Source of the DNA: an uncultured Nitrospirales bacterium
Lineage (GTDB): Bacteria; Nitrospirota; Nitrospiria; Nitrospirales; UBA8639
Assembly: GCA_958295805.1 (NCBI GenBank)
Contig: OY282373.1
Span: 2,327,001 to 2,391,000 of the forward strand
Reading direction: 5' to 3'
DNA length: 64,000 nt
A program made the translations under genes and the position numbers. The notes under the pieces are model-generated. The model saw only the letters and a program-made list of their open reading frames with translations. It was not told where the DNA came from and made no database searches. How positions within the stretch are numbered: the stretch's first letter is position 1; each line of letters opens with the position of its first letter. Shown piece after piece: positions 45,604 to 47,938 of the stretch.

Positions 45604-45632
45604 TTGACGACGTGATTTTTGTTTGTTATCTT
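45604..45632 (+). promoter_or_regulatory. sigma-70 promoter of the DUF3800 RNA/gene
   Basis: TTGACG (45604-45609), 17-bp spacer, TATCTT (45627-45632). A start about 7 bases on falls at 45639-45640, right at the 5' edge of the folded RNA stretch. The stretch 45384-45603 before it is AT-rich and shows no gene. Confidence 0.7.
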
Positions 45633-45640
45633 GTAGTTCA

Positions 45641-45704
45641 GTCGGCGCCGGAAGGCAGGGCTGCTAGCTAAGCCCGTCGGGGCTTTCCCCGGTCGGCTGC
45701 TTTT
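45641..45704 (+). ncRNA. compact structured RNA candidate upstream of DUF3800
   Basis: By hand folding: closing stem 45651-45657 (GAAGGCA) with 45698-45704 (TGCTTTT); inside it hairpin GGGCT/AGCCC (45658-45662 with 45671-45675, loop GCTAGCTA) and hairpin CGGGG/CCCCG (45678-45682 with 45687-45691, loop CTTT). In addition GCCGG (45647-45651) can pair with TCGGC (45693-45697) across the closing stem, a pseudoknot. GC content and pairing density contrast with the AT-rich surroundings. It ends 14 bp before the DUF3800 ATG. Predicted RNA motifs upstream of DUF3800 genes have been described; which one this is, if any, I cannot tell. Confidence 0.65.
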
Positions 45705-45718
45705 GTAAACAGAACAGA

Positions 45719-46501
45719 ATGTACATTCTGTATCTTGACGAGTCCGGTACCCATTCAGAGGCCAGCTACTTTGTGTTAGCTGGCCTCGCTGTTTTTGAGC
45801 GCGAAATCCACTGGTTTTCTCAAGATCTTGATGCACTGCAGAGGGAATATTTTCCCGCTGAAAACGAACCGGTTTTTTTCCACGCCCGGACACTTCGAGT
45901 ACCCGATACCACCGGATTGCCGGCGCCTCTGAATCAACTCAACAGGGAACGGTTGAGGGAGATAAAGGACAAAATCTACGACATTCTCCGCAAACGCGGG
46001 GCAGTATTATTTGGATGTGCCGTAGAGAAGAACTATGCCGAAGTGCGCCGTGAAGACCCATATGAATGGGCATTTGAAGACTTGATCAGCCGCTTCGATC
46101 TGTTTCTCAGGCGAATTAACCGATTAGCGGTAGAGGAAAGCAGAGAAGAACAAAGAGGTCTCGTGGTGCTCGCCGAATCAAACTACAAAAAAACAATTTC
46201 CTTGTTAGCGCAAAGATTAAAGCAATCAGGTACCCGGTGGCGGTCAATCCGTAACGTCACTGACATTCCGCTGTTTGCGCCTGCTCGTGATTCGAGAATG
46301 CTTCAATACGCAGATTTTTGTGCCAACGCAATCTATGGACGATATCATGGAGGATTGACTGGCGATTTCGACAAAATCGCGCCCAAATTCGATAGAGAAG
46401 GCGGGGCCGTCCATGGGCTGTCGCACCTATCCAACGACTCAAGCTGCGTTTGCCTAGCATGCCTTGGTCGCCAGGGACGCCAACAGGGCTTATCGATTTA
46501 G
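45719..46501 (+). CDS. DUF3800 domain protein
   Basis: 260 residues. Family marks: MYILYLDESG at the very start (the conserved Asp-Glu-Ser) and RMLQYADFCANAIYGRY near the end; a middle segment GLVVLAESNYKKT carries another acidic residue. The fold is thought to be RNase H-like, so nuclease activity on RNA is a reasonable guess, not shown. The last 35 residues look non-family and could be read-through into flanking DNA. No plain ribosome site precedes the ATG; the folded RNA just upstream may control or be the partner of the protein. Confidence 0.85.
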   Translation: MYILYLDESGTHSEASYFVLAGLAVFEREIHWFSQDLDALQREYFPAENEPVFFHARTLRVPDTTGLPAPLNQLNRERLREIKDKIYDILRKRGAVLFGCAVEKNYAEVRREDPYEWAFEDLISRFDLFLRRINRLAVEESREEQRGLVVLAESNYKKTISLLAQRLKQSGTRWRSIRNVTDIPLFAPARDSRMLQYADFCANAIYGRYHGGLTGDFDKIAPKFDREGGAVHGLSHLSNDSSCVCLACLGRQGRQQGLSI

Positions 46502-46599
46502 CAGATGTTCCCGCAGTCAATTAACACCTGCGCCACTTGGTATTCTCCTTGCTCGCGACTCACGAACTCACTCGTACACAGGCACGTGTAACGCCGCCG

Positions 46600-46705
46600 A
46601 GCGCGCATATTCGAGAAGGATATTTCCTCCAACTTTCTTCAGTTGTATCCATGAGGACAGACTATGCCTTTACGATCAAGGCCTACCTCAACGACATTGT
46701 CGTGA
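46600..46705 (+). pseudogene. decayed fragment of an M32 carboxypeptidase gene
   Basis: Reads FPPTFFSCIHEDRLCLYDQ then GLPQRH, against CIFSCLHEGGHGLYDQGLPQ of the intact gene; nucleotides match 44615-44715 at roughly three quarters of positions. The zinc motif HEGGH is HEDRL here and there are frameshifts. Neighbouring DNA in 46502-46875 has no other gene. Confidence 0.8.
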
Positions 46706-47371: not shown

Positions 47372-47938
47372 TTACATGCCCAAAGCCGTATTGAGTTTTG
47401 AGAGCGTCGCGGGAGGAACGGAAAATTCGCCGGTCACTTCAACGCGAGAAGGCACCAGCACGATCACGTGAAACGGAACGTCTCGAATACGTACTTTCTC
47501 CTCGGGACGATCAACGACGCTCATCTCCACGTTCTCGACGGATGCCGTGATCTCACCGACGTCTTGAGGACCATAGGTCTCCACGACGGTTTCCAGAATT
47601 TCCATAATCCGTTCATTGGCTTCAACCCCGGCAATCGACTTTTCCAACAGGGGAAGACAGTCTTCCGCCTGCCCCACCACGTCAAAATTCTGTAATCGTT
47701 CTTTTTTGCGCAAGGCCAGGAGATCGTTATCGAGTTCTTTGCTGAAAGCCCCATAGGGGAAACGCATAAATTCGTAGTGCAATCCGCGCAAGCCCTTCCC
47801 CAGCATTTGCAGTTCCGCAAGAAAAATGAGTTGTTGCACCTTCACGTCGCTGACCATCGAACATTCGTTCGACGCGGCAAGGTGCAACACGTACACGAGT
47901 AAGGTTCGATCAATCGAAATATCGTGAGGTTTGCGCAT
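47372..47938 (-). CDS. hypothetical protein, weakly SocA/Panacea-like
   Basis: 188 residues. The first half (residues 10-75) has a winged-helix look with KVQQLIFLAELQML and HYEFMRFPYGAFSKELDNDL, reminiscent of the Panacea/SocA antitoxin domain (a KLQKLLYFA-type helix followed by a YGP-type turn). The second half is unassigned. No toxin-like partner is adjacent. Divergent from fur. Confidence 0.55.
   Translation of the reverse strand: MRKPHDISIDRTLLVYVLHLAASNECSMVSDVKVQQLIFLAELQMLGKGLRGLHYEFMRFPYGAFSKELDNDLLALRKKERLQNFDVVGQAEDCLPLLEKSIAGVEANERIMEILETVVETYGPQDVGEITASVENVEMSVVDRPEEKVRIRDVPFHVIVLVPSRVEVTGEFSVPPATLSKLNTALGM

Follow-up and report, generated by a model that had tools for sequence, protein, structure and literature searches.

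Organization of the DUF3800 locus

The analysed stretch of 64,000 nucleotides, hereafter called the window, carries on its plus strand a DUF3800 gene that is preceded by a promoter and a short structured RNA. The individual features are as follows:

45604 to 45632, plus strand: sigma-70 promoter TTGACG-17-TATCTT, read from the sequence and top-scoring upstream of the RNA in an independent scan
45639 to 45699, plus strand: 61-nt structured RNA, assigned by its fold, a weak full-length match to RF02915 and the best match of covariance model R1 in the window
45639-45646 paired with 45692-45699, plus strand: closing stem P1, 8 bp
45647-45656, plus strand: extra hairpin GCC-GGAA-GGC, 3-bp stem with a GNRA cap
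45657, plus strand: unpaired A
45658-45675, plus strand: hairpin H1
45662 to 45671, plus strand: H1 loop with the hexamers GCUAGC (45663-45668) and UAGCUA (45665-45670), candidate kissing-loop dimer site
45676-45677, plus strand: GU linker
45678-45691, plus strand: hairpin H2
45700 to 45704, plus strand: U-run CTTTT immediately 3' of the closing stem, an intrinsic-terminator-like 3' end (layout A)
45719 to 46501, plus strand: DUF3800 gene, intact ORF of 260 aa with a predicted RNase HII-like fold (Pfam, AlphaFold2, Foldseek)
45758 to 45787, plus strand: 11-bp perfect inverted repeat in codons 14-23 of the DUF3800 coding sequence, possible mRNA hairpin

The boxes of the sigma-70 promoter, TTGACG at 45604-45609 and TATCTT at 45627-45632, are separated by a spacer of 17 bp, and a gap of 6 nt lies between the end of the -10 box and the RNA. 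The first-pass annotation of this DNA had assigned the gene a promoter of its own, and the independent scan selected the identical boxes as the best ones upstream of the RNA. The GC-rich folded stretch that had been described in front of the gene corresponds to the RNA at 45639-45699 together with the U-run at 45700-45704; the ATG codon at 45719 is located 19 nt downstream of the RNA and 14 bp downstream of the end of the U-run.

The minimum-energy structure calculated with RNAfold (-36 kcal/mol) consists of a closing stem that encloses three hairpins. The previously proposed closing stem and two hairpins were thus recovered along with a third hairpin, GCC-GGAA-GGC, whereas the pseudoknot that had been considered likely is not supported, since no two unpaired segments within the folded window RNA are complementary over 4 bp or more. 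The folding energy is unremarkable (z -1.45) and unconvincing by itself, so that the support for the window RNA comes from the comparison with its relatives. A string descriptor of the RNA architecture, which allowed for the insert and whose limits were chosen after inspection of the window (a mild circularity), detected a single site on both strands of the 64 kb, namely 45639-45699, and none in 3000 dinucleotide shuffles of the window. Applied to 1.17 million strand-bases of the relatives, it matched in 40 loci, in each case in front of a DUF3800 gene, and gave no hit at any other place.

Relationship of the RNA to the DUF3800-VI family

The window yielded no match to Rfam at the gathering threshold. 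A permissive search returned a full-length match (1-52) to RF02915, the DUF3800-VI RNA, with 16.5 bits, a score that does not reach the gathering value of 35. The stem-and-hairpin architecture of RF02915 is present in the window RNA with one inserted hairpin, and the placement is likewise that of RF02915, just upstream of a DUF3800 gene and on the same strand. The window RNA is related to DUF3800-VI but divergent, and by Rfam's own score it is not a member. Relatives of the window protein have above-threshold RF02915 copies just upstream of their genes. The relation to an Rfam family already described before DUF3800 genes was missed in the first-pass annotation, as were the inserted GNRA hairpin and the palindrome in the H1 loop. 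A minus-strand match to SSRC10 (26.8 bits, gathering 56) that overlaps the inverted repeat of the coding region was rejected as a chance hit.

For the comparative analysis, 80 genome loci and 8 viral loci were retrieved, to which further plasmid and genome loci were added. Their shared upstream architecture comprises a closing stem of 8-11 bp followed by a single unpaired A; next come a hairpin of 7 bp, a linker of 2 nt and a hairpin of 5-6 bp that stacks directly on the closing stem. Among 43 RNAs, both sides have changed in 18 of 21 pairs, and the covariation that had been proposed as a check is therefore strong. Pairing cells amounted to 96.2% in these RNAs versus 74.7% after shuffling and approximately 45% in slid controls, a percentage that is biased upwards because the RNAs were partly selected by fold topology; the covariation and the independent Rfam matches are less affected by this selection. 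The covariance model built from the 43 RNAs (R1) detected the RNA on the same strand, within about 160 nt upstream of the gene, in 85 of 98 DUF3800 loci. Inspection by hand revealed the same architecture in seven of the 13 other loci, the closest relatives of the window included, and the absence of the second hairpin from L034. The pairing within the clade of the window was also checked by hand, MAFFT having misplaced the 3' strands of L012, L013, L129 and L067.

In the 64 kb, model R1 matches the window RNA best (13.9 bits, E 0.15); the low score is due to the insert GCC-GGAA-GGC, which separates the closing stem from the unpaired A by 10 nt. The loci L125 and L131-L133, with intermediate scores of 16-26 bits, form a bridge between the window variant and the main group. 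The window contains a single copy of the RNA, and two tandem copies precede one gene in L039, L044, L055, L057 and L085.

A separate observation concerns a cyanobacterial, Bacteroidota and Acidobacteria subclade in which the loops of the two hairpins contain complementary ACC and GGU trinucleotides (L032, L035, L038, L045-L050, L052, L054, L059, L060, L063, L074, L079-L081, L087 and L088). Compensating changes occur in this pair, for instance ACU/AGU in L052, and judged from the sequences the pair likely represents a loop-loop contact. This short contact is supported in that subclade, which is not the one that contains the window.

Boundaries of the RNA and possible transcriptional attenuation

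In 88% of the loci (71 of 81), a distance of 4-13 nt (mode 6-7) separates the end of the -10 box of the best sigma-70 promoter from the RNA, compared with 16% in shuffles. Since this spacing is conserved, transcription should begin with the first nucleotide of the closing stem; the start is thus predicted to lie at the RNA and not after the fold. A lack of covariation and a transcription start past the fold had been named beforehand as outcomes that would speak against the two-part interpretation, and the sequence evidence points to neither.

Two arrangements were distinguished at the 3' end: layout A, in which a U-run directly follows the closing stem, and layout B, in which a terminator structure of its own follows the RNA. 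Under strict criteria, a U-run directly after the closing stem was found in 45 of 82 loci (random sites 4%, local shuffles 30%) and a separate terminator hairpin before the gene in 15 of 82, so that 60 of 82 loci have one or the other; weaker versions are present in most of the other 22. On the protein tree (77 labelled rows), the terminator layouts require 2 changes versus at least 20 in shuffles. The layout B RNAs additionally display a conserved CC(U/G)AAUUC-like stretch ahead of the separate terminator (L005-L011, L028, L040, L041, L043, L056, L082 and L091-L096).

These boundaries bear on plain cis-regulation, according to which folding of the leader, perhaps stabilised by DUF3800, would cause early termination and set the expression of the gene, the role of the RNA being confined to its own transcript. 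Such attenuation is the main rival of a type III-like pair. DUF3800-VI is filed as Cis-reg in Rfam, the RNA is always located in cis just upstream of the gene, the closing stem and U-run of layout A themselves resemble a terminator, and RCd22, the RNA of the AbiF/RCd22 pair, lowers transcription of its own gene in addition to neutralising the AbiF protein by binding (PMC12373285). However, no competing antiterminator is apparent, the RNA and the terminator are distinct structures in layout B, and attenuation needs neither tandem RNA copies nor self-complementary loops that are kept by compensating changes. On balance, we regard this explanation as possible and somewhat unlikely.

The DUF3800 protein

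The identification of the gene product as a DUF3800 protein was corroborated by PF12686, the sole Pfam family matched, with 64.3 bits over residues 3-206 (curated cut-off 21). An AlphaFold2 model based on a 63-sequence alignment reached a pLDDT of 95.4 and a pTM of 0.92, and a Foldseek comparison of this model with the PDB placed RNase HII on top (E 6.5e-4, probability 1.00), the matches being RNase HII and HIII. These results agree with the RNase H-like fold that had been presumed for the protein. The residues D7, G10, G22, R193, Q196 and D199 are among those that are invariant in the 63-row alignment, and the YLDESG start resembles the DE motif of RNase HII. A sequence search of solved structures gave nothing meaningful. 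An RNase H fold has been reported for a CRISPR-linked DUF3800 protein, in agreement with the window model (PMC10910872).

The common acidic residue D152 is replaced by A or S throughout the clade of the window (A152 in the window), with an acidic residue at position 153 in the inspected rows of the clade, and E53 is replaced by F in the window protein. Catalysis is therefore uncertain. The altered residues A152 and F53, the Rfam score below gathering and the broken genes in several relatives of the window clade could also be taken to indicate that the window copy is a non-functional relic, which would account for both its divergent RNA and its altered acidic residues. We consider this very unlikely, as the ORF, the promoter and the RNA architecture are all intact, the predicted fold is confident, and the change at residue 152 is common to the whole clade and not private to the window.

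The predicted fold would also suit an RNA-guided or RNA-activated nuclease, in which the RNA serves as a scaffold or guide that switches the protein on against invading nucleic acid. Some Cas12a2 and VI-F CRISPR loci are accompanied by DUF3800 proteins, and the unit is carried by plasmids and phages. Nevertheless, the closing stem ties up both ends of the RNA, and most members have no unpaired stretch longer than about 10 nt, which leaves no free guide, and the loops appear lineage-specific rather than spacer-like. Such a nuclease is accordingly an improbable interpretation.

The inverted repeat within the coding sequence is distinguished from synonymous recodings by a z value of -3.9. The equivalent place is structured in L015 (-2.5) and L013 (-2.3), with differing letters in L013/L014 and L015, and such a structure is absent in most relatives.

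Genomic setting and mobility

The neighbours of the unit in the window are housekeeping-like, with an M32 carboxypeptidase gene upstream and a gene for a helix-hairpin-helix protein downstream. These two genes adjoin each other in same-genus genomes that have neither the RNA nor the DUF3800 gene, and this empty site indicates that RNA and gene arrived as one unit. Behind the DUF3800 gene, a degraded M32 carboxypeptidase fragment was detected at 46557-46697 besides the complete upstream gene; it is possibly a scar of the unit's arrival. Near the helix-hairpin-helix gene, positions 47372-47938 encode a protein of 188 aa that matches no Pfam family and shows 74-82% identity in most same-genus genomes and 61% in one.

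The unit of RNA and DUF3800 gene was found on enterobacterial plasmids of 3.6-5.7 kb; of 5426 complete E. coli genomes, 12 have it, plasmid-borne every time. It also adjoins a CI repressor in two Pseudomonas phages; a search of viral contigs with the window protein alone gave no match. No recurrent partner gene was present among the neighbours of 117 proteins, and in a test for defence islands a few neighbours matched PADLOC models, none of them recurrently. The view of RNA and protein as a two-part unit, as proposed in the first-pass annotation, is borne out by the distribution of the terminator layouts on the protein tree, by the plasmids and phages and by the empty site, all of which indicate that the two components change and move together.

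A search with the RNA only in 296 genomes of the window's phylum yielded six matches, five of which adjoin a DUF3800 gene or its remnant; three of these five genes are broken. The sixth match lies within an unrelated gene and is probably due to chance. Intact-looking RNAs were found upstream of DUF3800 genes broken by frameshifts or stops in L101, L102, L104, L125, L129 and L067, some of which may be errors of draft assemblies. The genome of L112 contains a second, short DUF3800 fragment (1465-1809, 22 bits) that adjoins apparent nucleotidyltransferase and PIN-domain genes.

The broken genes are relevant to a reversal of roles in which the RNA is harmful and restrained by the DUF3800 nuclease. 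A strain-specific Legionella DUF3800 gene, assigned at family level only, scored as essential in a transposon screen (PMC7811196), a result that favours this reversal and counts against a plain toxin reading. On the other hand, a harmful RNA is predicted to be lethal beside a broken DUF3800 gene, and such combinations exist in L101, L102, L104, L125 and L129, even if some are perhaps assembly errors. The reversal of roles is thus scarcely credible.

A palindromic H1 loop in the clade of the window

On the protein tree, the window forms a clade of 7 rows (SH-aLRT 98) with L012-L015 and L017/L018, which originate from genomes of Chloroflexota and Gammaproteobacteria; further searches enlarged this clade by L125, L129 and L131-L133. 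All ten RNAs examined from the clade contain a self-complementary hexamer in the H1 loop where 1.4 would be expected, whereas outside the clade a hexamer palindrome occurs in one of 43 loops (4.4 expected); as the clade loops are related by descent, a product of the individual chances overstates the significance. The hexamers are UAGCUA/GCUAGC (window), GUUAAC, GCUAGC, UCUAGA, AGGCCU, GCUAGC, GAGCUC, CGCGCG and GGUACC (twice), and six of the ten RNAs carry the palindrome in the identical register of a 10-nt loop. Related rows differ by double changes that preserve the palindrome (GCUAGC in L013, GUUAAC in L012, UCUAGA in L129). The hexamer of L131 and L132 could alternatively form a small internal hairpin.

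According to the simplest reading of these sequences, the palindromic H1 loop predicts that the RNAs of the window clade form kissing-loop dimers. A binding site at the DNA level is less likely, since the letters vary while the self-complementarity persists.

A two-part model of RNA and DUF3800 protein

The explanation that we favour, with a probability of about one half, is a mobile two-part unit akin to type III toxin-antitoxin systems or AbiF/RCd22, in which the RNA restrains a protein that stops growth or fights phages. Transcription would begin at the first base of the compact RNA, and most transcripts would stop at the U-run after the closing stem, giving a discrete RNA of approximately 60-70 nt in excess, while read-through would provide small amounts of DUF3800 mRNA. 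The RNA would bind the RNase H-fold protein and keep it inactive, probably as a dimer formed through the palindromic H1 loop in the window clade. If the supply of RNA drops, for example when a phage or the loss of a plasmid halts transcription, the protein would be freed and might act as a growth-stopping nuclease or a nucleic-acid-binding toxin.

The sequence comparisons support the RNA structure, its promoter and terminator boundaries, the co-inheritance with the protein, the mobility, the fold and the loop palindromes; from these we infer RNA-protein binding, inhibition, toxicity and phage defence. The two-part model draws on the covariation, the placement of the motif, the spacing of promoter and terminator, the layouts on the protein tree, the tandem RNA copies, the intact RNAs beside broken genes, the occurrence on plasmids and phages, the empty site and the lack of a recurrent partner, and on AbiF/RCd22 with its same order of promoter, RNA, terminator and toxin (PMC12373285). 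The cis-regulatory class in Rfam, the altered acidic residues and the RNA score below the Rfam threshold argue against it. More tentatively, the DUF3800-VI RNAs might be trans-acting partners of an RNase H-fold effector and constitute a new class of RNA antitoxin, with homodimers in the window clade that assemble through the palindromic kissing loop into a 2:2 RNA-protein particle.

The literature that was searched yielded no functional study of the Rfam-catalogued RNA motifs before DUF3800 genes, nor toxicity, binding or transcript data for DUF3800-VI pairs. As far as we have seen, the GNRA insert, the palindromic loop, the RNA end boundaries across the family and the two terminator layouts that track the protein tree are new; parts of what concerns the family as a whole may already have been published. 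The comparisons place the ends of the RNA at promoter and terminator and indicate that the protein changes and moves along with its RNA; the E. coli plasmids of 3.6-5.1 kb that carry the unit offer a small test system. If the model holds true, an RNase H-fold protein would join the RNA-controlled toxins or phage-defence proteins, and an RNA dimer would represent an unusual control device.

Comparison with known systems

The window RNA shares with RF02915 (DUF3800-VI) the site just before a DUF3800 gene as well as the closing stem, the unpaired A, H1, the 2-nt linker and H2, and differs from it in having a 10-nt GNRA hairpin ahead of the unpaired A and, like its clade, a palindrome in the H1 loop. 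Ribonuclease HII is the best structural match of the DUF3800 model, yet with 9-16% identity and a TM-score of about 0.4-0.5; moreover, DUF3800 has an extra C-terminal part, and the acidic residues are partly replaced in the clade of the window.

The AbiF/RCd22 pair of a Clostridioides difficile prophage, composed of an abiF RNA (RF03085) and an Abi_2 protein, has a promoter at the RNA and an intervening terminator with read-through, and it likewise is a stand-alone pair on mobile DNA whose RNA motif is doubled, as in some DUF3800 loci (PMC12373285). It differs from the DUF3800 unit in protein fold and RNA family; neither RF03085 nor Abi_2 was matched in the window, where the protein corresponds to DUF3800 alone in Pfam. 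Neutralisation of the toxin by RNA binding has been demonstrated for AbiF/RCd22 (PMC12373285) and is proposed for the DUF3800 unit.

The type III toxin-antitoxin systems ToxIN, CptIN and TenpIN share with the window a structured RNA upstream of the gene and a terminator between them, and the separation of RNA and gene that is characteristic of type III is provided here by the U-run after the closing stem. In contrast to these systems, the window has a predicted RNase HII-like fold instead of a ToxN/AbiQ-like one, a single RNA copy instead of a repeat array, and an RNA that lacks a pseudoknot. Judged by protein fold or by RNA repeats, the DUF3800 unit is thus not a type III toxin-antitoxin system, although it may work like one.
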